Source: Gammaproteobacteria bacterium
Lineage (GTDB): Bacteria > Pseudomonadota > Gammaproteobacteria > Steroidobacterales > Woeseiaceae
Assembly: GCA_029881055.1 (NCBI GenBank)
Contig: JAOUNH010000007.1
Span: 1-34,065 of the forward strand
Length of the DNA: 34,065 nucleotides
Direction of reading: 5' to 3'
Part shown: positions 7,268 through 31,964 of the stretch, in pieces
Layout: the number at the start of each line of letters is the position of its first letter
How positions within the stretch are numbered: position 1 is the stretch's first letter
The notes under the pieces: model-generated
The model's input: only the letters and a program-made list of their open reading frames with translations
Databases searched by the model: none
What the model was told of the DNA's origin: nothing
Translations under genes and position numbers: made by a program

Positions 7268-8623
7268 ATGATGAATTGCAAATCCATTGTGTTGGGGCTT
7301 GGCGTTGCGTCGCTGTTCTGTTGCCTGCCCGCCGCCCAAGGTGCGGCGGAAACGGAGCCCAAACAAAAAGGTGAATACGGGCAGGTCGACCTGACAGCCG
7401 ATGAGTATCACCTGATTGAAACCTCAGAGGAGATGCACGACCAGCTTGAACGACGCGGCTTGCGGCACAGCAACCGCCGGCTCGAGGCGTGGATGCAGAC
7501 AATTGGCCAGAGCCTTGCGCCGGAACCCACCGATTTCTATCAGGAATACCGCTTCTACCTGTTACACGACCCATCGCCCAATGCCTTCGCGCTACCGGAC
7601 GGCCAGATCTACGTGCATACGGGACTGATCAGCCGCTTGCAGACTGAGGCGCAGCTGGCGACCTTGCTCGCGCACGAGATCAATCATGTTGCCGGCCACC
7701 ATGGCGTGTTGGCTTATCGCTCACAGCGCAAGAAAGCCGCCGCGGGCATTTTCTTCAGTATTGCCGGGGCGTTGGCCGGTGGTTGGGGTGAGGTTGCAGG
7801 GCTGATGGTTAACGTGGGGCTCGTCTCCTCCGTGTATGGCTATAGCCGCGAGCTGGAGCAGGAAGCCGATATCAAGGGATACGAACGGATGTTGCAGGCC
7901 GGCTATGACGTGCGCGAGATGCACAAGCTCTTTGAGATACTGGGTCAGGATTTCGAGGGCCTGAATCCGCGCATTGGCGGCAAATGGAGCACACATCCCG
8001 ATCTCGCCTTGCGTGGCCAGTACACGGCCGAGCTCGCGGCGAGTACACCCGAAGAGACGCTCGCCGGCTTGCGCCTCGGCGATGACAGTTTTCGTCGTCG
8101 CGTACGGCCGGTGGCGCTGGAAACAGTGCGCGATTACATCCTGGCCGATTATCCGAAAACCGCGTTGGAGCTCGCCCGGTACCTGGTCACCGAGGATTCG
8201 GATGATGCCGGCGGACATGTGGCGACGGGGCACTCCTACATCGCCCTGGGAGCAAGATCCGAATTTGCCGCCGAAGCGCAGTTGACCGACAAAGAAAAGA
8301 AGCAGCAAGTCAAAATCCGTTCCAAGCTGACGCGCGATGAATTGCATGCGCAGGCTGAACAATCACCGGAGGCCAAAACCATCATCGAGCATAATCTCGC
8401 TGCGGCCGAAGCCGCGTACAGGATCGCGCTGGAACTGGATCAGGGCGCGGCCGAGGCACACGCCGGTCTCGGCGAAATCTACCTGAGGCGTGGCTTGCAC
8501 CGCGACTCCGCACGCGAGTTGATGACCTACCTGAAGCTGCGTCCGGACGCGCCGGATCGAAACATCGTTATGGATGACCTGCGTGACATCGCACAACAAA
8601 TTAAAACTGCAACCGGAGAATGA
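7268..8623 (+). CDS. M48 family metalloprotease with C-terminal TPR-like region (BepA-like)
   Basis: Signal peptide; HEINHVAGHHG (HExxH); SRELEQEADIKGYERMLQAGYD; TPR-like AEAHAGLGEIYLRRG. Confidence 0.88.
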   Translation: MMNCKSIVLGLGVASLFCCLPAAQGAAETEPKQKGEYGQVDLTADEYHLIETSEEMHDQLERRGLRHSNRRLEAWMQTIGQSLAPEPTDFYQEYRFYLLHDPSPNAFALPDGQIYVHTGLISRLQTEAQLATLLAHEINHVAGHHGVLAYRSQRKKAAAGIFFSIAGALAGGWGEVAGLMVNVGLVSSVYGYSRELEQEADIKGYERMLQAGYDVREMHKLFEILGQDFEGLNPRIGGKWSTHPDLALRGQYTAELAASTPEETLAGLRLGDDSFRRRVRPVALETVRDYILADYPKTALELARYLVTEDSDDAGGHVATGHSYIALGARSEFAAEAQLTDKEKKQQVKIRSKLTRDELHAQAEQSPEAKTIIEHNLAAAEAAYRIALELDQGAAEAHAGLGEIYLRRGLHRDSARELMTYLKLRPDAPDRNIVMDDLRDIAQQIKTATGE

Positions 8624-10100: not shown

Positions 10101-10964
10101 ATGAACGTCTTCCAGGTTCGGCCGGCAGCCGAAGTATCCATTGCCCCGCAATTCCCCGCTGCTTTTACGCGGATCTTCTTGCTTTCACTACTTGTTTCGC
10201 TGCTCCTGGTCGTTACGGCGCAGGCGCAGGCACCGACGATCAAACTGTTTCCGACGACGGTCGTCGAAGACCTCCGCCAAACCAGTTTCGTCGCGAAAGA
10301 GATGGAAACCGGTTTGCAGGAAGTCATCGGGCGGCTTGATCAGCAACAGCAGCTCTACCAGGAGAGCAAGTGCGACGGCGCCGAGTCGGATCCCGGCTGC
10401 CAGCGGCTCGCCAAGCAACTGGGTGCGACCTACCTCGACATGCTCGGCATCATGGAAGAACGCCTGCCGGACATGGAACACACCGTTAACAACACGCGCC
10501 TTAGCCTGGAAAAACGGCTGCGCAGTGAGCTTGGCAACAAGATGACGTCGTGGACTTTGCAGGAAACCCTCCTGGGCGGAAATCCGCAGGCGGAGTCCGC
10601 CGCCGCGACGCCATCCATGCGCGGCAAGTCCGGCATGCGGCTGAGCGAGAGGTTTCGCCAGTACTACCAGCTGGTCGCGTCTTCAAGCAGCCAGACGGAC
10701 CAGTCCCTTGCCGTCCTCGCGTCCGACATTTATCTCGACATGGATGAGACAAGCGTCCTGATCGCCCGTACGCGCGAGGAAATCGCACGCGCGACCCTTA
10801 TCGAACAGCTTAACCAGTCATTCGGCACGATTACGCCGGAGATGATGGAGGTTGTCGGCGGTGTGAAGTCGATCCTGTTCGGCGATGAGGCATCGCAGGT
10901 GCAGGTCGCAGGACCACCGCCTGGCAGTATTGAACAGGCCTATCGCAGCCCGCTGGAAAACTGA
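10101..10964 (+). CDS. Exported or membrane-anchored coiled-coil-like protein, unknown function (cluster gene A)
   Basis: Hydrophobic segment IFLLSLLVSLLLVVTAQAQA, then a helical-looking domain with a Cys pair (SKCDGAESDPGCQRL). First gene of a tight co-directional run. Confidence 0.75.
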   Translation: MNVFQVRPAAEVSIAPQFPAAFTRIFLLSLLVSLLLVVTAQAQAPTIKLFPTTVVEDLRQTSFVAKEMETGLQEVIGRLDQQQQLYQESKCDGAESDPGCQRLAKQLGATYLDMLGIMEERLPDMEHTVNNTRLSLEKRLRSELGNKMTSWTLQETLLGGNPQAESAAATPSMRGKSGMRLSERFRQYYQLVASSSSQTDQSLAVLASDIYLDMDETSVLIARTREEIARATLIEQLNQSFGTITPEMMEVVGGVKSILFGDEASQVQVAGPPPGSIEQAYRSPLEN

Positions 10965-10980: not shown

Positions 10981-11526
10981 ATGAACTTCAATTACTCAAT
11001 CGTTCGAGCGCTGGCTTTACTGATGACAGGCGGCATGTTGCTTGCGTCCTGCGCCAGCTCACCGCCGCCCTGTGACGGCCCACAAACGAAGAACCTCGAC
11101 GCCGCGATCGGCGACGTAAAGGAAAGCCTGGTTGCCGGATGCTCCGCGCACTTCGAGGCCTACTACGATGATTTGCTGGAGATCGCCGAGGGCAACCCGA
11201 AGCATGAAAACAAGCGCTTGTTCAGCGACTTCCTCGTCTGGGCCAGCGACGAGGGTATTCTCAGCCAGCGCCAGGCACGCGACTACTACAATCGTTACTT
11301 CAACGTGAAGTTCGTTTCACTGCAGAGCGACTACAACAATTGTTCACACACCTGCCCACGGCGCGGCAAGGTCATGCTCGATATGCAACGCGAACTTTCC
11401 GACAAGGAACGCGGCCTGCTGAAAGTGAGCATGGACAATGCCGGCTACTACCGCGCGGACGAGCTTTACCAGGAAGTCGAGCTTGTGCTTGAGGCTACCT
11501 GTACAGCCTGTTCCGCCGGCCAATAG
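10981..11526 (+). CDS. Putative lipoprotein with Cys pairs (cluster gene B)
   Basis: ATG at 10981; lipobox MLLASC, then SSPPPCDG, NCSHTCPRRG and ATCTACSAGQ. The ORF-track start 10885 lies inside gene A. Confidence 0.8.
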   Translation: MNFNYSIVRALALLMTGGMLLASCASSPPPCDGPQTKNLDAAIGDVKESLVAGCSAHFEAYYDDLLEIAEGNPKHENKRLFSDFLVWASDEGILSQRQARDYYNRYFNVKFVSLQSDYNNCSHTCPRRGKVMLDMQRELSDKERGLLKVSMDNAGYYRADELYQEVELVLEATCTACSAGQ

Positions 11527-11536
11527 GTACTGCACG

Positions 11537-12208
11537 ATGATTTCCGCCGGGCGGAGCGCTGGTTTCATGGAAGGTCTGACCGTGGGCATGTTTGGTTCCG
11601 CGGTCGGCGCCGGCTCTGCGCTCTATCTTATGCGGCGCAATGACTTCGTTTCCTTCTCGCCCGATCGACTGCCGAGTATCGATCCGTGGCTCGACTGGGC
11701 CTTCGCGAATCTGGGCATGTCGATACCGGTATTCGCCGCGATCCTCGTTGCTTACGTTGTCAGCCTGCGCCGTTTGCGCGCGCGTCTCGACAGCGAACGG
11801 CCGATTGACGAGATCGTACAACTCGACCATCTGACGGATATGTGGACGACGCTGTTCTTTGGCACCGGAGTCATCTGGACGGCTATCGGCATGCGCAGTG
11901 CGCTGCTTTTCGCGTTGGGCGATCCTGACTCGACGATTCAACAAGGCGCCTTTGCTGTCCTGCAAAGAATGGTGGACGGCGGAATTTTGCTTGCACTCTC
12001 GACCACGATCTTCGGCGGTGTTGGTGGCTACCTGATGCGCGTCTACAAATCCGTAGCCATCGGTACACGATTACAACAGCGTTACGACAGGGCTGCCCGC
12101 GTCGATACTTCGAGCATGCGCGAATCGCTCGAGCGCATTGAGAAACGCCTGTGCACACCGAAGGACAATGACTCGGCTGCCAGCGCCACAACGGAAGAGC
12201 CGTCGTGA
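11537..12208 (+). CDS. MotA/TolQ/ExbB-like proton-channel family protein, four predicted TMs (cluster gene C)
   Basis: ATG at 11537. TM3 LFFGTGVIWTAIGMRSALLFAL and TM4 GGILLALSTTIFGGVGGYLMRVYKSV match the TM pattern of this superfamily; followed by a gene with ExbD-like topology. Confidence 0.6.
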   Translation: MISAGRSAGFMEGLTVGMFGSAVGAGSALYLMRRNDFVSFSPDRLPSIDPWLDWAFANLGMSIPVFAAILVAYVVSLRRLRARLDSERPIDEIVQLDHLTDMWTTLFFGTGVIWTAIGMRSALLFALGDPDSTIQQGAFAVLQRMVDGGILLALSTTIFGGVGGYLMRVYKSVAIGTRLQQRYDRAARVDTSSMRESLERIEKRLCTPKDNDSAASATTEEPS

Positions 12209-12972
12209 TGCGCTCCCCGCTGTTTTACCCGTTGAATCGCGGCGGTGACGCCGACGCAGGCGGTGCAGCGGAATTACAAACCGATGTCATGCGTTTCATG
12301 GCGATATTGTCGCTGTGCCTGGTAGCCATTTTTGCGCTGGTGCAAAGCATACCGTTGTCCCCCGCCGCGGACGAACCGGCACCAAAGCAGGAGGTCACGC
12401 CGGTCGTAAACGAGGCGGTTACAGAAATAGCTCCTGCAGAAGAAGTCAGCGCATTGGTCAGGCCCAAACGCATCCAGCATGAATTACCGACAGCGGCTGT
12501 TTCTTTATCGCGACCGCGTCCATCACCGGTCACCGAAACACCCGAGCCTGCGCCATCGGCAAGCGTGACTGCACCTCCGCCTGTTGCCGAAGCACCAACG
12601 CAAGCAGCGGACCCTGCCGAGATTGGTTTCACCCTGCGATTCGAAAACGATACGGCGCTGACGCGGCTGGTAGAGCAACAGGTCGTCGGGTTTTATGCCA
12701 TCGGAGCCGATAGTGCATTTCGCCTGTCAATCGATGGAAACGCGATCAGTTTCTGGCCGGCATCGATTCCCGGCCAGTTTCATGAAATGGACAGTGCAAC
12801 GGTCCCCGAAGCAGTGCTGGGCGCGTACCGGCGTAGCAACGGCGCTCCGGACATTCGGTGGGGCGTGACACTGCCGGCGAAAATGTCACGCGACCTGAAT
12901 GACTACCTGGGTGCCGAGACCGGCGGCTCACTGATTATCGCCGCCAGTGGCGACATCAACCTGAGGCAATGA
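12208..12972 (+). CDS. ExbD/TolR/MotB-like single-TM protein with Pro-rich linker and periplasmic domain (cluster gene D)
   Basis: TGATG junction with gene C. N-terminal ...AELQTDVMRFMAILSLCLVAIFALVQSIPL places an Asp (about residue 26) at the TM start, as in ExbD/TolR; Pro/Ala/Glu-rich linker; C-terminal alpha/beta-like domain ending GGSLIIAASGDINLRQ. Confidence 0.55.
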   Translation: MRSPLFYPLNRGGDADAGGAAELQTDVMRFMAILSLCLVAIFALVQSIPLSPAADEPAPKQEVTPVVNEAVTEIAPAEEVSALVRPKRIQHELPTAAVSLSRPRPSPVTETPEPAPSASVTAPPPVAEAPTQAADPAEIGFTLRFENDTALTRLVEQQVVGFYAIGADSAFRLSIDGNAISFWPASIPGQFHEMDSATVPEAVLGAYRRSNGAPDIRWGVTLPAKMSRDLNDYLGAETGGSLIIAASGDINLRQ

Positions 12973-12973
12973 G

Positions 12974-14464
12974 ATGCTGGGTTGGCGACAAACATTCGTG
13001 CTCACCGTCACAAGCATACTTGCGGTTTCGGCTCACGGTGCTTCATTCGAGGCGGATCTCGAGCAGTGGATAGCCCGTGACCTGACACCTTACGTAGCTG
13101 AGCAACTGACGTCGCAAGCGCGCTTTCGTAATGAGTCCATTCGTTTTGTCGTGTTGTCGGGCGAAAACCCGCAGTCCGCCGCCAGCGAACTCGCCCTGAA
13201 AATTCGCGACCGTATGCGAGATGCCGTGGCGAACGAACCGGGACTGCGAGTTGTATTGCAACACGATACCCTGTCCGCCACCGAAGCAGGCCACCTGGAT
13301 TGCACGAAGGACAGAGTGCACTACTACATCGGCGTGAATGTCATTGCCGAGCAACGCGGCCTGGTCAGCATCGACATTCGGGCACTCGATATCGAAGATC
13401 AAAGCTGGGTGGCCGGTTTTACGCGCTCGTGGCGTGGTTACCTGGATGCCAGTCAGCGACGTCAACTGGATCACCTGGTCGCCGACCCGACTCTGCGCGG
13501 CGCACGCGGCGCCCCGTATAGCGAATCGCAGTTCGACCTGCTTGCCGCGCACCTGGCGCACGAGCTTGCGTGTTCCCTGCTGCGTCAGACATCCGGCGAG
13601 TACGTTGTTGCGGGGCTGCCGGGCAAGCCGGACGCTAATGCCGACGGGGCCATGCTGGAACTCGTCAGTAACAACCTCGCCGAATTCCGGGCCCTGCAGT
13701 TTGCGGCTTCGGATGCCGATGCAAATTCGGTCATAGAAGGCAAGGCGCACCTGATCGCCAATGAGCTCTACCAATACTGGATTACGATCAGGCCGAAAGA
13801 CACTGATCCTTCACTTCCGACTCTGAGCGCGAGTGCTTATATTCGCGTCACCGACAAGTACTCCAATGCCGCCTTGATTCCCACGGTGACGGTCGCACTT
13901 GCGAGAACGTCCGAGCAATTTGTCGACAATTTCAGCATTGTTGCACTTCGCGACAAAAACGCATGCCAGGCACCCACGTTTCAGCGCCAGAATTCCGGCA
14001 TGTTCGACAGCCGCTATTCGTCCAGCGAGTGTTTCGCACTGCAGGTCGACACAGCCGACGACGCAATACTGTTTTTCCTGAATCACCAACTGAATAACGG
14101 CCTGGTGCGCCTTGCCGACAAAGACTGCCGTGATCGCACCGATGCAAAAATTGCACTTGAGGGCGATCAGTTTCGCTACCCGTTGCCCGCCGATACGTTG
14201 ATGTCCGCCTCCTGGACCGCAACCGACGGCTGGCAGCTCTCACCGGATCAGGACACTTACTACGCCATTGCAGTAACGGATTCCAGGGCGGCCCGCGCGA
14301 TATCGAAGCACATTGCCACATTGCCGAAACGCTGCACTTCGTCTGTGCGCCAGGGACTTGAAGGCACCGAACTCAAGGCCTGGCTGGAAAAATTCGCGGC
14401 AATCTCCGGGCGCTGGGAACAGGCGATTGACTGGCGTGCGGTGCGTGTCCGCAACGTCTACTGA
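12974..14464 (+). CDS. Large exported protein of unknown function (cluster gene E)
   Basis: Signal peptide ending AVSAHGA; RFVVLSGENPQSAASELALKIRDRM and VHYYIGVNVIAEQRGLVSIDIRALDI suggest a CsgG/LpoB-like fold (weak). Confidence 0.75.
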   Translation: MLGWRQTFVLTVTSILAVSAHGASFEADLEQWIARDLTPYVAEQLTSQARFRNESIRFVVLSGENPQSAASELALKIRDRMRDAVANEPGLRVVLQHDTLSATEAGHLDCTKDRVHYYIGVNVIAEQRGLVSIDIRALDIEDQSWVAGFTRSWRGYLDASQRRQLDHLVADPTLRGARGAPYSESQFDLLAAHLAHELACSLLRQTSGEYVVAGLPGKPDANADGAMLELVSNNLAEFRALQFAASDADANSVIEGKAHLIANELYQYWITIRPKDTDPSLPTLSASAYIRVTDKYSNAALIPTVTVALARTSEQFVDNFSIVALRDKNACQAPTFQRQNSGMFDSRYSSSECFALQVDTADDAILFFLNHQLNNGLVRLADKDCRDRTDAKIALEGDQFRYPLPADTLMSASWTATDGWQLSPDQDTYYAIAVTDSRAARAISKHIATLPKRCTSSVRQGLEGTELKAWLEKFAAISGRWEQAIDWRAVRVRNVY

Positions 14465-14474
14465 GGTCGGTCCA

Positions 14475-15026
14475 ATGTTCAGATTACTAGGTTTTCTCAT
14501 CGGCTCAGCGATCTCCATCGCCGTCATTTTGCTGGTCACGGGACTTCCTGAATTCCACAGTCAGAGTTCGGAAATTGACCAGCAGCGCTTCGACGAGGCC
14601 GTCGAAAAGCTGATGGCCAGGAAAGTCGATGCGCAGAGAGCAGGCCAGGTGACGCCTGCGGTAGTCACCGATACTGACGCCAGCGAACTGCAAACGGGGG
14701 TGCAAACCGAAGTACTGCCGGATCACGCCACAAATGATGCGGATCGCGCTGACTTGCAGCCGGCGGAACAATCAATGCAGATATCAACTGCCCTGGCAGT
14801 GGAACAAAGTCCGCAATGGTATTCGTTCTGGAATCCATTTCGCAGCCAGATTGCCGCCAGCGGATTTGTTTCCCGGCTCGAGGAAGTGACGGGTCTCGAT
14901 TATCGAGTCGTCAAGGTTAAGTCCGGTGTCTACGAAGTTGCGTTTTCCTATTTTGACGACGAAGAACGGCGTACGAAGCTGGCCGTCATATCCGACGCGA
15001 CGGGTCTCGAGCTGCCGGACTCATGA
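14475..15026 (+). CDS. Single-TM protein with C-terminal SPOR-like domain (cluster gene F)
   Basis: ATG at 14475; TM FLIGSAISIAVILLVTGL; linker; GFVSRLEEVTGLDYRVVKVKSGVYEVAFSYFDDEERRTKLAVISDATGLEL. The ORF-track start 14313 lies inside gene E. Confidence 0.72.
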   Translation: MFRLLGFLIGSAISIAVILLVTGLPEFHSQSSEIDQQRFDEAVEKLMARKVDAQRAGQVTPAVVTDTDASELQTGVQTEVLPDHATNDADRADLQPAEQSMQISTALAVEQSPQWYSFWNPFRSQIAASGFVSRLEEVTGLDYRVVKVKSGVYEVAFSYFDDEERRTKLAVISDATGLELPDS

Positions 15027-15811
15027 GGCACTTAGTGCATCGGGCTTTACTGGTATTTCTTGTTGCCGCAAGCGCCAGCACGTTCGCCGCGAGGACCACG
15101 ACAGCCGATCCGGACGCGGCGTGGAAGCATTACCTGGATAACGATACCGGTATCGCACCCGGTCTTCGCTTTCCTTATACAAGCTGCTTCAAGGCAGCGG
15201 CAGCAGCGCACGATCTGCCGGAAACCCTGTTGCTTGCGGTTGCACGCGGTGAAAGCGATTTTGAGGCGACGGCGCGCTCAAAAGCGAACGCACATGGCGT
15301 CATGCAGATCCTCTGGCCTACCACCGCAAACCATCTCGGCATTTATCGCCTGACTCAACTTTACGACCCGTGCACAAACATTGATGCTGGCGCGCGATAC
15401 CTGAAGGAACTGATCAGGCAGTTCGACGGTAACTTGCACCTCGCGCTTGCCGCCTATAACTACGGTCCCGATCGCATTTCAAAAGACACGGACAACATAC
15501 CCTCAGGGGCGCTCTGGTACAGCGACTACATTTACCGGCACCTGAACTACGTCCTCGGCGACAGGAAATCGACCCGTTCACCGAGTGAACGACTCTATTC
15601 CGAGCTTGGACGAACGGTGCTCGTCTCTTTTGCCGAGCCCTATCGCGCAGCGGCGTTTGTCGATGGCCTGGAGCAGCGCTCCCCGTCGCTGAAGCTGGAC
15701 TGGTTCCGCAAGGACGTCGGCAATTTTTCAGTCGTAGTCTCATACAATGATCGGGACGATTTTCGCAATACCGCTACGTTGCTTGCCAATGCGGGGTTTC
15801 CCCTCGACTGA
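15023..15811 (+). CDS. Exported SLT-family lytic transglycosylase with C-terminal SPOR-like domain (cluster gene G)
   Basis: ATGA overlap with F; signal peptide; catalytic RGESDFEATARSKANAHGVMQILWPTTA and ALAAYNYGPDRI motifs. Confidence 0.9.
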   Translation: MRHLVHRALLVFLVAASASTFAARTTTADPDAAWKHYLDNDTGIAPGLRFPYTSCFKAAAAAHDLPETLLLAVARGESDFEATARSKANAHGVMQILWPTTANHLGIYRLTQLYDPCTNIDAGARYLKELIRQFDGNLHLALAAYNYGPDRISKDTDNIPSGALWYSDYIYRHLNYVLGDRKSTRSPSERLYSELGRTVLVSFAEPYRAAAFVDGLEQRSPSLKLDWFRKDVGNFSVVVSYNDRDDFRNTATLLANAGFPLD

Positions 15812-15888
15812 GCGCCCCTGACAGCGCAACCCGATTCTGCCTGTGTCATGATTAGCGCCTGTACAGCACTTTGGCGCGCGAGCTTGTT

Positions 15889-17712
15889 ATGGCCAAATCA
15901 TCCGGCGAACAGCCACCATTTTCGGTACAGGCGGAACGCCGTGTGCTGGAAGCCATCGACGCCCGGCAGGTAGCTGATTTCTCGTCACTGCCCGCACCTG
16001 AACGGGTGCTTCGTGCTGAATTTCTGCAAGCGCTGATTTCCGGCTCGCATGCATCGCACGGAGAACTGTGCTGCCCTTTGCGCATACACGGCGCCGATAT
16101 CGTTGGAGCGTTGCGGCCACCGACTGGCGTCCGGCACGGCGACACGGCATTGCAGTTCCGCTCATGTAGTTTCGATGCACCGGTCGATCTTAGTGGTGCC
16201 GAGTTCCTGGTGTTGCGTTTCGTTGAGTGCACCTTGCCGGCTTTCATCGGGGCAAGCCTGCGTGTGCGGGCGGATCTCGATCTTTCAGGTTCGCAATTCT
16301 CCGGTGTCAGCGACTACGAATCAGAGTTAAGCCAGGTCGGCACCGGCTCAATCCATCTCAGCAATGCCCGAATTGGTGGCCGCCTGGTGCTCAGTTCTAC
16401 GCCGGGATCCCGCTTCACTGCCGCGGGCACGATCCGGCTAGACGGCGCGAAAGTCGACGGCGATGTCACGCTGGCGGGTGCCCTGATGGATGGTCGGGAC
16501 CAGGCTGCGCTGAGCGCCCGCTCAATGATCGTCGGCGGCAATGTCAGTCTACAACCCGCGGGTGGCTTTCGCTCCGAGGCGATCGGTGAAGTCGCGTTCG
16601 TAGCTGCACAGATTACCGGCGACCTCGTTTGCGACGGCGCCCGGCTGACCAACCCCCGCGGTCGCGCGTTGCACTGCGAGGACCTGAAAGTGGAAACCGT
16701 GACGCTGACATCCAGTGACGAGCCCCATCACCTGTTCGAGGCCAGCGGCAGAATCAATTTCCTCACGGCAATCATCGGCGGCAGTTTCTTCCTGACCAAC
16801 GCCCGCCTGGCGCCGGGCCCGGACTACAAGGGCCTGCTCACAACCGGCGGGCCGGTGATGGCAAACCTGCGGCAGACGCGCATTTCCAACGCGCTCGCAC
16901 TGCGAAATATTGGCGCGCTGCAATCCGGGGACGCAGCCCTGCACCGCATTCCGGAACCGGTCAGGGGATGGTTGCTGCTGACCGGCGCACAGGTGAACAC
17001 TATCCTCGACGAGGTCGCGACCGGCTGGCCTGCGCCCGGCTTTCTCGATCTCGATGGCACCACCTACTCTCGTATCCGCCACGTCGGCCGCGGTGACGTT
17101 GTCAAAGAGAGCATTGCCTGGCTGCGCAACCAGTTTCCGAACGGCCGGCCCAACGCGGGCAGCTTCCGGCCACAGCCTTACGAACAGTTGAGTCGTGTCC
17201 TGCGCCAGCATGGCCAGACGCGGGAGGCCGATGCGATCGCGGTTGAAAAGATCCGCATGCGACTCGCGGCACGCGTCGATAAACCCTGGAACCGCATCTT
17301 TCCGCGCCTGCTGATGCTGATCAGCCACCACGGTTATTCGACCAGTCGTGCCATCATGTCATTCCTGATATTCGTCCTGCTCGGTTCGCTGATGTACTCG
17401 TCGGCACTGTTTGTGTTTGGGCAATCCTTCGTGCCGGTCGAAAACGCGCCCGAAACGGCAACCTACGACTTCGCCTTCGGTCTGGCGACACTCACAACCG
17501 AGAATGGCTGCCCGGGGTTCGATCCCCTGCACTATGCGCTGGATGCCGCCATGCCCGTGATCGACCTCGGCCAGGACCTGCGTTGCCGCTTCATGCCGGT
17601 GGGTCCGCTACGCTGGTTGTGGTTGATGTTGAACAGTCTGTATGTCATCGCCGGCGCGGGCCTTGCCGCCGTTGTCGTCTTGACGCTGACCGGTGTATTG
17701 CGGCGCGACTAG
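15889..17712 (+). CDS. Beta-helix-like repeat protein with C-terminal membrane domain (cluster gene H)
   Basis: Repeats of the form GTIRLDGAKVDGDVTLAGALM / GEVAFVAAQITGDLVCDGARL / GRINFLTAIIGGSFFLTNARL, then hydrophobic IMSFLIFVLLGSLMYSSALFVFG and LNSLYVIAGAGLAAVVVLTLTGVLRRD. ATG at 15889 preferred over TTG 15871. Confidence 0.75.
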   Translation: MAKSSGEQPPFSVQAERRVLEAIDARQVADFSSLPAPERVLRAEFLQALISGSHASHGELCCPLRIHGADIVGALRPPTGVRHGDTALQFRSCSFDAPVDLSGAEFLVLRFVECTLPAFIGASLRVRADLDLSGSQFSGVSDYESELSQVGTGSIHLSNARIGGRLVLSSTPGSRFTAAGTIRLDGAKVDGDVTLAGALMDGRDQAALSARSMIVGGNVSLQPAGGFRSEAIGEVAFVAAQITGDLVCDGARLTNPRGRALHCEDLKVETVTLTSSDEPHHLFEASGRINFLTAIIGGSFFLTNARLAPGPDYKGLLTTGGPVMANLRQTRISNALALRNIGALQSGDAALHRIPEPVRGWLLLTGAQVNTILDEVATGWPAPGFLDLDGTTYSRIRHVGRGDVVKESIAWLRNQFPNGRPNAGSFRPQPYEQLSRVLRQHGQTREADAIAVEKIRMRLAARVDKPWNRIFPRLLMLISHHGYSTSRAIMSFLIFVLLGSLMYSSALFVFGQSFVPVENAPETATYDFAFGLATLTTENGCPGFDPLHYALDAAMPVIDLGQDLRCRFMPVGPLRWLWLMLNSLYVIAGAGLAAVVVLTLTGVLRRD

Positions 17713-27791: not shown

Positions 27792-27945
27792 CGCACGCCA
27801 AAAACGAACGGCCAGACACCTGATCGCTAAGCATTTGGCCGTACCTGTATAAGCTGGTGGCCAGAGGCAGACCGATCCGCGCAAATCTCACGCATCGCAT
27901 CCATGGGCTTTGGACGTTCGGTCCGGTGTAAACTCCGAGCTACCG

Positions 27946-28716
27946 ATGAACGCCCGCCGATTTTTTCTCATGACCATAGTGTTCTGGCTGCTAGCTGCCG
28001 GAATACTGTTCGTGAATTCCTGGCCCAATGCGCGAAACCACATCCAAGTTACGTACGTGCGCTACGCGTACTTTTTCGTGGTCGGGTTGCTGGCCAGCGG
28101 CGGGATGATGTTTTTGTACGGGAGCGACTGGTTTGCCCGGCAGCAACGGCGACTCTTGTGGGTGACTGCCTTCAGTGCTATTGCGGCGCTGGTCACCGCC
28201 GTCCTTATCAATCCCATTACGTACATGATGGTCGGCCGCAGCATCCACGCGGTACCTATTGAGATCATTTCCACGGGTACTTTGTACTTCACCCTGTTGT
28301 TTATGATCTGGTCGGCGATCTATTTGCAGCTTAAGGGTGAATCGCTTTTACATGCGCGCCCTGTTGCAGAGGACGGACCGCGCCCTTCGCCTGTCTTCCA
28401 GGTCGAGAAGCGCGGCGAAATCCGGCAGCTGCGTGCGGACGATATTGTCTGCGTCCGCGCCAACGGCGACTACGTCGACCTGATCACTGCGGCCAATATT
28501 TATCTCAAGAAAGACACGATGGCGAACCTCGAATCGATGCTCGATCCCGAGCTTTTCAAGCGCATACACCGCTCGACCATCGTCAATATACGGAAAATCG
28601 AGCGCGTTTCGCCGAAACCGGGCGGCGCGTTCGACATCACCCTCGAGGGCGGATGCCTGGTGCAGTCCAGCCGCGGATATCGCGCAGTCGTATCGACTAT
28701 CGTACCGGCCGGCTGA
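27946..28716 (+). CDS. Membrane-anchored LytTR family transcriptional regulator
   Basis: Four hydrophobic segments, then a LytTR domain: EIRQLRADDIVCVRANGDYVDLITAANIYLKKDTMANLESMLDPELFKRIHRSTIVNIRKIERVSPKPGGAFDITLEGG. ATG at 27946 preferred over TTG 27910. Confidence 0.9.
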   Translation: MNARRFFLMTIVFWLLAAGILFVNSWPNARNHIQVTYVRYAYFFVVGLLASGGMMFLYGSDWFARQQRRLLWVTAFSAIAALVTAVLINPITYMMVGRSIHAVPIEIISTGTLYFTLLFMIWSAIYLQLKGESLLHARPVAEDGPRPSPVFQVEKRGEIRQLRADDIVCVRANGDYVDLITAANIYLKKDTMANLESMLDPELFKRIHRSTIVNIRKIERVSPKPGGAFDITLEGGCLVQSSRGYRAVVSTIVPAG

Positions 28717-28834
28717 CACCATTCATCGACGGCGAGTGACACTCGTCGACAAAGGGCGACATTAAGCGATTCCTTGCTGCGTTTCTGGCAGTTCTCGCAT
28801 CCAATCTTCCGGAACACACAAACGGGAGATTGTG

Positions 28835-29524
28835 ATGACCATTGAGCTGCACTCCGTCTCGAAGAGTTACGAGACTCATGCCGGACCGTTCGACGCTGTG
28901 CGGGAACTATCCCTGAACATGACGCCAGGCGAGTTCATCGGTTTGGTCGGCCCTTCGGGGAGCGGCAAGTCGACGCTGCTTAATCTGATCAGTGGTCTGG
29001 ACCACCCCTCATCCGGCGAAGTCCGGGTCGCCGGAGAACGACTGGCTGGTCTGTCGGAAACGAAACTCGCGAGTTTCCGAGGCGAGAAGATCGGCTTCGT
29101 ATTCCAGTTTTTTCAGCTGGTTCCGACGCTGACGGTATTCGAGAACGTCATGCTGGCGATGGACCTCGTCGGCACGATCAATAGGTCCGAGCGACACAAG
29201 CGCGCCCTCGAACTACTGGATCAGTTCGGCGTGCTGCGTCACAAGGGCAAGACGCCGTCGAGGTTGTCGGGCGGCGAGCAACAGCGCGTCGCAATCGCAC
29301 GCGCGCTTGCGAACGACCCACCAATCCTGGTCGCGGATGAGCCGACCGGAAACCTGGATTGCGAGAACAGCGATCGCACGATGGACCTGTTTGCAGATTG
29401 CGCGGACGGCGGCCGCCTGGTCATTGTCGCAACACACGACACCGCTAGGCTCGGTCGACTTAGCCGTGTGCTGACTTTGCGCGATGGCGCGCTCGTCAAG
29501 GACGAGGTCAACGGGCATGGCTAA
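28835..29524 (+). CDS. ABC transporter ATP-binding protein (LolD/MacB-type)
   Basis: Walker A GPSGSGKST, signature LSGGEQQRVAIARALAND, Walker B ILVADEPTGNLD. Confidence 0.95.
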   Translation: MTIELHSVSKSYETHAGPFDAVRELSLNMTPGEFIGLVGPSGSGKSTLLNLISGLDHPSSGEVRVAGERLAGLSETKLASFRGEKIGFVFQFFQLVPTLTVFENVMLAMDLVGTINRSERHKRALELLDQFGVLRHKGKTPSRLSGGEQQRVAIARALANDPPILVADEPTGNLDCENSDRTMDLFADCADGGRLVIVATHDTARLGRLSRVLTLRDGALVKDEVNGHG

Positions 29525-31964
29525 CAGCATCGGGAAAAAAATCTGGCGCGACCTCACCGAGCGCAAAGGCCGCAGCTTGCTGACGATACTCGGCTTGTGC
29601 ATCGGATTTTGGGGTGTTGGCAATGCGGCTGTGGCCTGGCTGGTACTGAGCAAGGATCTCGCCGGCAATTTCACGCGCACCAACCCGCCCGCCATCGCGA
29701 TGACCATCGAGGGGCGGGGCGTGGTTGACGTGAGGCGTATCGGTGCGATCGAGGGCGCACAGGAGATCGAGAACCGCCCGCAACTCTCGGGCCGGATTCA
29801 ATATGCACCAGACCGCTGGCTGGCGCTCGTCCTCTGGGTTGTCGAGGACTTCAAAGACATGCGCGTCGGTACGGTATTTGCTGAGGATGGCACTCTCCCT
29901 CCGCCACCAGGCACCATGATCGTCGAGCGCGATGGCCTGCCTCTTGCCAACGTTTTAAAAAGACGCGAGCAATCAGGGAGCGTCGGCCACAACAAACTTA
30001 TTGTCGATCCCGAGGCGCCATTCGTGCGCTTTGAGGATGCGCCGATTCCGGTACAGCTTGCCGGCGGTGTGGACGTCATGGCCGCAATCAGCGGCACCGT
30101 GTTCGATCCCCGTCAGGCGCCATCACGCATGGAGATGGCGATATACGCCTATGCAGAACGCGACACCGTTGCACAATGGGGCGCCAAGATTACTGATCGC
30201 TTGCTGGTCACGCCAGCACCCGGATATGAAAACGAGGCCGCCATCCACGATACTGCGGCCCGGCTCAAAGCACGATTGGCGAAGCTCGGCTACGTCACGG
30301 TTGAGACCGCTTATCCCTCGCACACGAAGCATGTACATCAGTTCCAGATGAATTCCATACTGTGGCTGATCTCCTGTGTCGGCATCCTCGCCCTGCTGAT
30401 GAGCGTCGTCCTGGTAGTGGACCTGATAGCCGGTATTCTGACGAACCAGGTGCGCCAGATAGGGGTGCTCAAAGCCATCGGCGCATCCGCGCGGCAGATT
30501 ACGCTGATCTACGCGACCGAGATGATGTTGGTCGGTGCCATCGCAGCCGCGATCGCCATGCCCTTCTCGGTCCGTAGCGGATTCGTCCTATCTGGCTGGC
30601 TCGCGGCGCTGCTGAACTTCGAGCTGCTGACTGAGGAACTGCCGCTGTCTGCCTACGCCAGCTTTGTTATTGCAGCAAGCCTGTTCCCGGTAATTGCCGC
30701 GCTACCTACGGTCCGCCACTGGGCGCGCGTCTCGGTTACGGATGCGTTACAGCATTTTGGGGCAAATCCCGAACAGGATAAGTCACTCCGTATCGATCGC
30801 ATCACGGCACCGCTCGCACTGGACGTGCGCATGGGGCTGCGCAACGCATTTCGCAAACCGCGGCGCACTCTGATGACTGCGGCGACCCTGGGGCTCGGGC
30901 TGCTGGTGTTCATGGTTGCAATGAATACTCGTTCGTCACTGCTCTACACGGCCGAAACGGAGGAAGCTGCACGACGCTATGATGTGCTGGTCGGTTTTGA
31001 GGAGCCGATCGATGCGAGCCGAGTCGCGTGGATGAGCGCTTTTCCGATTGTCGAGCGTGCCGAGACCTGGCGTATTGAGCGCGCGAACATCATTTCCCCG
31101 AATGAGGCGCTGGACGAAGACGTCCGGCTATTCCGCGTACCGGACGACAGCGACATGATGAATCCCAACGTCCTCTCGGGGCACTGGTTTGGCGATGGGC
31201 AGGCCGACGGCATCGTCATCAATCTTCGTCTACAACAAGCGCGGCCGGAACTCGTGCCTGGTGCGCCTGTTCTCCTCGCTGTAAACGGGCAGGAGCTGGC
31301 GACGACCGTTATCGGCGTCATCAAGGAATTCGGGCCGGCATCAATGTACATCCGCGATGCGGATTATCGCGTACAGCTGAATGATCAGGACCAACGGGTA
31401 AACGCCGGCTTCGTACGCCTGAAAGAGCCGACGGAAAAAAATCTCGCCACTCTCACTGCGCTTTTGGAATCGCATTTCGAACTGGTACAGGTTCGTATAC
31501 GCGGACTGCAATCCGGCAAGGTCGCGAGCCGCGTCATCCGCGGCCACCTGGACAGTATCATCACGACACTCCTGGTACTCGCGCTGCTGGTATTGTTGGT
31601 AAGCGTCCTCGGCATGACCTCGGCTGTCTCTACGAACATCGTGGAGAGGGGTCGGGAACTCGCAATACTGCGAGCAATTGGCGGTACCCCGGCCGCAATC
31701 CGCCGGATTCTCTTCAGCGAGGCCGTAACGATTGCCGTCGTCGGGTGGGTGTGCGCACTTCTACTGGCCGCCACAGTCAGCTCGACAGTGTCTGATTTCT
31801 TCGGCCAGGCGCTAGTGGAGTACCCTTTCGACTTCCGTTTCTCGCCGCTCGGCGTTGCGTCGAGCTTTGCGCTCGCTGTACTGCTCGCCGTGCTTGCCAG
31901 TATCGTACCCGCGCATGTCGCAAGTCGGCAGTCGGTCCGGGTCGCGTTACAGAACGGGGCATGA
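29517..31964 (+). CDS. FtsX-like (MacB-type) ABC transporter permease
   Basis: 8-bp overlap with the ATPase gene; MANSIGKKIWRDLTERKGRSLLTILGLCIGFWGVGNAAVAWL; two FtsX-like modules (IGVLKAIGASARQITLIYATEMMLVG; ELAILRAIGGTPAAIRRILFSEAV). Confidence 0.92.
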   Translation: MANSIGKKIWRDLTERKGRSLLTILGLCIGFWGVGNAAVAWLVLSKDLAGNFTRTNPPAIAMTIEGRGVVDVRRIGAIEGAQEIENRPQLSGRIQYAPDRWLALVLWVVEDFKDMRVGTVFAEDGTLPPPPGTMIVERDGLPLANVLKRREQSGSVGHNKLIVDPEAPFVRFEDAPIPVQLAGGVDVMAAISGTVFDPRQAPSRMEMAIYAYAERDTVAQWGAKITDRLLVTPAPGYENEAAIHDTAARLKARLAKLGYVTVETAYPSHTKHVHQFQMNSILWLISCVGILALLMSVVLVVDLIAGILTNQVRQIGVLKAIGASARQITLIYATEMMLVGAIAAAIAMPFSVRSGFVLSGWLAALLNFELLTEELPLSAYASFVIAASLFPVIAALPTVRHWARVSVTDALQHFGANPEQDKSLRIDRITAPLALDVRMGLRNAFRKPRRTLMTAATLGLGLLVFMVAMNTRSSLLYTAETEEAARRYDVLVGFEEPIDASRVAWMSAFPIVERAETWRIERANIISPNEALDEDVRLFRVPDDSDMMNPNVLSGHWFGDGQADGIVINLRLQQARPELVPGAPVLLAVNGQELATTVIGVIKEFGPASMYIRDADYRVQLNDQDQRVNAGFVRLKEPTEKNLATLTALLESHFELVQVRIRGLQSGKVASRVIRGHLDSIITTLLVLALLVLLVSVLGMTSAVSTNIVERGRELAILRAIGGTPAAIRRILFSEAVTIAVVGWVCALLLAATVSSTVSDFFGQALVEYPFDFRFSPLGVASSFALAVLLAVLASIVPAHVASRQSVRVALQNGA

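Follow-up and report, generated by a model that had tools for sequence, protein, structure and literature searches.

A fixed and previously undescribed set of seven genes, G1, G2, C, D, G5, G6 and SLT, is found in Woeseiaceae-like bacteria and a few other Gammaproteobacteria, and we consider it probable, on balance, that its two central genes, C and D, work as a 5:2-type motor driven by ions. A motor pair resembling ExbB/ExbD and MotA/MotB had been proposed by a first-pass annotation of the window (the whole stretch of DNA analysed, 34,065 nucleotides from a metagenome-type assembly of a Woeseiaceae bacterium). Topology, translational coupling, the position of an aspartate, a Pro-rich linker and the fold ranking of C speak for this reading, the searches with motor-family profiles speak weakly against it, and the homology of the pair to MotAB and ExbBD remains unproven. 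The Woeseiaceae are described as bacteria that occur widely in marine sediments (PMC7082342). No prior description of the seven-gene set was found in the profile libraries and open-access literature searched.

The Seven-Gene Operon and Its Distribution

All genes of the set lie on the forward strand. G1 (10101..10964) encodes an exported, probably helical protein of 287 aa with a signal-like N-terminus, for which 25 homologues were found and which lies adjacent upstream in nearly all loci. No other operon gene comes near it in conservation, its identity being 70-85% in these homologues versus about 60% for C. G2 (10981..11526), conserved in position, encodes a lipoprotein of 181 aa with the lipobox LASC and a conserved Cys motif, NNCSHTCP; its identity is 65-73% in 18 homologues and 28% in the rearranged locus L078 (see below). 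Gene C (11537..12208; coding part 11537-12205, stop codon TGA at 12206-12208) encodes a four-TM subunit of 223 aa, putatively pentamer-forming and ExbB/MotA-like, and gene D (12208..12972) a putative axle subunit with a single TM, ExbD/MotB-like. The ATG of D at 12208 overlaps the stop codon of C in a TGATG, which bears out the translational coupling claimed at first pass; an alternative GTG start lies at 12205. The exported G5 protein (12974..14464; 496 aa) has a lipoprotein-type N-terminus in loci L205, L206 and L207, and its candidate identity as FTCD_C (best E 0.006, 6 members) was unconvincing. G6 (14475..15026) consists of an N-terminal membrane anchor, a Pro-rich linker and a conserved C-terminal domain. 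A SPOR domain, suspected there by eye and from matches of 4 of 18 members (best E 0.093), was rejected, as hhalign scores against the SPOR domains of relatives (n=13) fell within those of shuffles. Finally, SLT (15023..15811) encodes an exported lytic transglycosylase of the SLT family (PF01464, E 8e-27); across 19 homologues there is no variation in its catalytic-type motifs, which lie around GESDF, GVMQI and AAYNYGP. SLT reaches a Pfam or NCBIfam cut-off, and G1, G2, C, D, G5 and G6 reach none.

The flanks of this block are variable, and its chromosomal site is common to some related genomes. In the window, an M48 metallopeptidase with TPRs, distantly BepA-like, lies upstream of the operon and outside the conserved block (7268-8623). 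The gene at 15871-17712 encodes a protein of 613 aa that has TM segments in its C-terminal part and belongs to no NCBIfam family, and the region 27910-31964 appears to encode a membrane protein with a LytTR-like C-terminus, then an ABC transporter ATPase and a large FtsX-type permease.

Gene C was matched in 25 of 60 related genomes (E 1e-57 to 1e-87), at 50 further loci in GTDB genomes and in 4 of those tallied from a class-wide sample of 274 genomes. Since homologues occur in related, class-wide and GTDB genomes, C and D are real coding genes, and their conservation is far above chance. A phylum-wide profile search of 349 genomes gave C in its own genome only, and thus no family bridging C to ExbB was found. 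D adjoins C wherever the contig permits, with the exception of one rearranged case, and the order G1, G2, C, D, G5, G6, SLT is repeated in about 50 loci. The closest carriers are mostly labelled Woeseiaceae or Gammaproteobacteria, and searches with a D profile added two genomes from other families that carry the set (G723, and G765 with two copies). The two operon copies of G765 (L205 and L206) are diverged, and the D of one of them has a long coiled coil and lacks a Pro-rich linker. In the Marinobacterium genome G698 (L078 and L207) the set is rearranged over two contigs, the one carrying a Sel1-repeat protein, C and the lipoprotein, in this order, and the other G6, SLT, D, two further genes and G5. 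The Sel1-repeat protein, which lies directly upstream of C in L078, has 892 aa; the two genes between D and G5 in L207 encode proteins of 207 and 390 aa without Pfam match. Note also that almost every carrier is a metagenome assembly, and incompleteness therefore affects the pattern of presence and absence.

Gene C: Topology, Conservation and Fold

Four hydrophobic segments had been reported for gene C, and its family-averaged hydropathy indeed has four peaks, near residues 25, 69, 117 and 157. An AF2 model of the monomer (pLDDT 70, pTM 0.51, 34 sequences) has helices at residues 5-34, 49-59, 62-85, 90-127 and 130-206, the last two of which contain TM3 and TM4 as long continuing helices, as in ExbB. 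Both ends are predicted to lie inside, because of their basic residues and the positive-inside rule as read from the sequence, and the TM2-TM3 loop spans about 25 residues by hydropathy and in the model. In ExbB, TolQ and MotA this loop belongs to a large cytoplasmic domain, which in PF01618 proteins precedes the channel-lining hairpin and which C lacks.

Conservation within C is highest in TM3, the next loop and TM4. The TM3-TM4 hairpin (WTTLFFGTGVIWTAIGMRSALLFALGD...RMVDGGILLALSTTIFGGVGGYLMR; 11843..12043, forward strand) is a candidate ion pathway, with the consensus GTGVIWTAIGMRSALxxALGD...GAFxxLxRMxDGGILLALSTTIxGGxGGYLMR. WTAIG and AL(S/T)(S/T)TIxG are present in 56/56 aligned C sequences, and the hairpin (WTAIGMR...GGILLALSTTI) is nearly invariant even where overall identity is 43-55%.

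When the C model was compared with the PDB by Foldseek, 12 of the top 50 matches were ExbB, TolQ, MotA or Zorya chains, far outnumbering any other membrane protein family. ExbB chains stand at ranks 2, 4, 5, 10, 16, 31 and 49, a ZorAB chain at rank 14 (TM 0.67 of a 99-residue target), TolQRA at rank 25 and MotAB/PomAB-type stators at ranks 32, 41 and 42. Every fold match has an E above 0.3, the TM-scores are mostly 0.2-0.37, and unrelated helical bundles are interleaved with the motor chains. As these 12 chains are one fold counted repeatedly, they amount to a single line of evidence. Nothing of use for C came from a viral structure library.

Gene D: A Conserved Aspartate and a Variable Linker

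The plan attributed to gene D at first pass is recovered in its sequence and in an AF2 model, which again is that of a monomer. A short N-terminus is followed by a single TM (helix 21-47), a Pro-rich linker in a low-confidence, unstructured stretch (residues 48-138) and a folded C-terminal alpha/beta domain (residues 140-253; mean pLDDT at least 90 in every 10-residue block). With a conserved acid near the cytoplasmic end of its TM, D follows the plan of B subunits of the ExbD, TolR and MotB type. This acid is the aspartate already noted at the TM start, D26 (codon 12283..12285, forward strand), which lies near the helix start in the model and is kept in every homologue checked. The motif QTDxMRF stands at the helix start in 51/51 aligned D sequences, a frequency that is partly by construction, since the set was trimmed on QTD. 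The outlier L082 has ETDVMRF, with Glu in place of the Gln two residues before the Asp, and four further distant copies (L204-L207) retain QTDxMRF; thus the Asp is kept in all D proteins checked and the Gln is not.

The length of the Pro-rich linker varies from 56 to 176 residues (regular-expression count in the aligned set). L206 has in its place a heptad-patterned coiled coil of about 160 residues, with hydrophobic residues at 35/46 a/d positions versus 23/116 elsewhere. The TM of the L207 protein is likewise followed by a coiled-coil-like stretch, though a shorter one. Coiled coils right after the TM suggest that D may form a parallel dimer. As regards the C-terminal domain, its conserved motifs are HEM...TVP...WGVTLP, and no PDB structure matched the fold of this periplasmic domain significantly. 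GHKL-ATPase-like matches (probability at most 0.2, TM-score at most about 0.2) were rejected, and neither Pfam nor the PDB gave a match for an OmpA-like peptidoglycan-binding domain in D.

Sequence Comparisons with Motor Families

Profile similarity to the known motor families, which the first-pass reading had led one to expect, was not found: even at E 10, MotA_ExbB (PF01618) matched none of 34 C members and ExbD (PF02472) none of 27 D members, and neither protein matched any Pfam, NCBIfam, PADLOC or PDB-sequence profile. The same models easily found 6 MotA_ExbB and 7 ExbD matches in the genome itself, one of these canonical genes matching TolQ at E 3e-63. By hhalign, C scored 22.6 (probability 3.6%) against the ExbB/TolQ family of genus relatives, which is above the maximum of column shuffles of the same profile (19.5, n=30) and within the span of five unrelated long TM families (15.6-26.2); a broader, more diverse C profile scored 23.1 versus a shuffle maximum of 24.2. 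In the same set-up ExbB and MotA score 60 (95%), and the method is therefore able to see true homologues here. The last two segments of C had also been likened to TM helices of TolQ, ExbB and MotA. Unconstrained hhalign aligned GVIWTAIGM/GGILLALSTTIFG of C with GLxGTVxGM/GIxEALIATAxG of ExbB, placing the hairpin in register with TM2-TM3 of ExbB/TolQ, which are the channel-lining TMs, and the TM4 motif was also aligned with MotA. The register agrees with the likeness, but the score is not above that of decoys. For D, the N-terminal 55 columns were not above shuffles against ExbD, and a 30-column profile alignment with the ExbD/TolR periplasmic domain (probability 6-11%) was above them.

Because of the profile test and the missing large cytoplasmic domain, C and D are not filed under PF01618 and PF02472. 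A survey of MotAB relatives reports that sequence searches typically missed ExbD and TolR, and that adjacency was used to assign B subunits (PMC12505986). GldLM has been described as a 5:2 motor that shows no obvious homology to MotAB in sequence (PMC9389320). Given these precedents, missing sequence similarity is weak evidence against a motor.

Known Systems and Alternative Explanations

C and D resemble ExbB/ExbD and TolQ/TolR in their A-then-B order and in a single-TM B subunit with an acid at the TM start, and C appears to share with ExbB and TolQ a TM pair with GxxxTxxG-like and ALxxTxxG motifs and, in the model, long TM helices. They differ in that C carries an additional TM at its N-terminus and lacks both the cytoplasmic domain of about 100 residues and a profile match, and in that the periplasmic part of D is longer and different, with no detectable ExbD domain. 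C also resembles MotA and PomA in its four TMs, in the predicted location of its two ends inside, and in a TM4 motif that aligns with MotA, whereas it lacks the cytoplasmic torque-generating domain, and D the OmpA-like domain match, of MotA/MotB and PomA/PomB. GldL/GldM offers a precedent for such divergence, but C differs from it in its four TMs and short C-terminal tail, and type IX secretion genes were not recognised in the operon.

One alternative, which strikes us as rather unlikely, is a membrane pair unrelated to the motors. C would then be a four-TM scaffold or resemble a small transporter, D would be a periplasmic adaptor of the TonB/TolA or linker type, and the two would assemble an envelope complex without ion-driven movement, in which the Asp of D would be structural. 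An unrelated pair would accord with the lack of significant profile matches of C and D to motor families, the decoy-level hhalign score of C and the periplasmic domain of D without known fold match, and one D member weakly matches the TonB polyproline region (E 0.016). It leaves unexplained, however, the dominance of motor chains among the membrane proteins in the fold matches of C, as well as the joint presence of MotA-type topology, the TM-start Asp, coiled-coil D linkers and the A-then-B order.

A sub-case of the motor reading, as to task, is a lineage-specific extra system, either Tol-Pal-like (outer-membrane constriction) or Ton-like (receptor energising). The operon does hold an outer-membrane-type lipoprotein and exported partners, and the genome has the separate canonical MotA_ExbB and ExbD genes mentioned above, including the TolQ match; since TolA, TolB, Pal and TonB-like genes were not recognised in the conserved operon and D has no detectable ExbD/TolR domain, we find this task doubtful. 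It is very improbable that the pair serves as a stator in flagellar or gliding motility or as a Zorya-like motor against phages. The same motor type is used by gliding and Zorya systems (PMC9389320, PMC12505986), and the fold matches of C include a ZorAB chain. Yet flagellar MotA_N had no match in the six same-genus genomes searched, this one included, PADLOC matched no operon gene, C has no long cytoplasmic tail, and neither ZorC/D/E-type genes nor any nuclease or effector gene was recognised in the conserved operon. In addition, tblastn of C against plasmids gave no match.

Proposed Mechanism and Implications

In the motor reading, which we prefer, several C subunits (five by analogy) would surround a D dimer, forming an inner-membrane motor like ExbBD, TolQR and MotAB. 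D26 would be the ion-carrying acid, opposite polar Thr/Gly positions of C TM3-TM4; ion flow and rotation, like the oligomer and the task, are what we infer for the pair, while its gene structure, conservation and predicted topology and the fixed operon are what the analysis shows. C and D would power a trans-envelope machine built with their operon partners, namely two exported proteins, a lipoprotein, a TM-anchored protein and a lytic transglycosylase. Because separate canonical MotA_ExbB and ExbD genes, one of them a TolQ relative, are present and MotA_N is not matched in the six same-genus genomes searched, C and D are taken as an additional system, and SLT, the lipoprotein and the exported proteins make a task at the cell wall or outer membrane most likely, judging from the operon context.

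It is conceivable, if somewhat short of probable, that we are dealing with a new class of ion-driven trans-envelope machine: a pared-down 5:2 motor without cytoplasmic torque domain and with a new axle domain, powering a seven-gene, cell-wall-acting apparatus. Equally tentatively, an apparatus of this pared-down motor with its own SLT might belong mainly to Woeseiaceae and be scattered in other Gammaproteobacteria. If true, one more family would join the few proton-driven rotary motors, and its minimal A subunit, a TM core without cytoplasmic domain, would bear on how torque is made and transmitted. Woeseiaceae would then possess an unstudied energised cell-wall machine.
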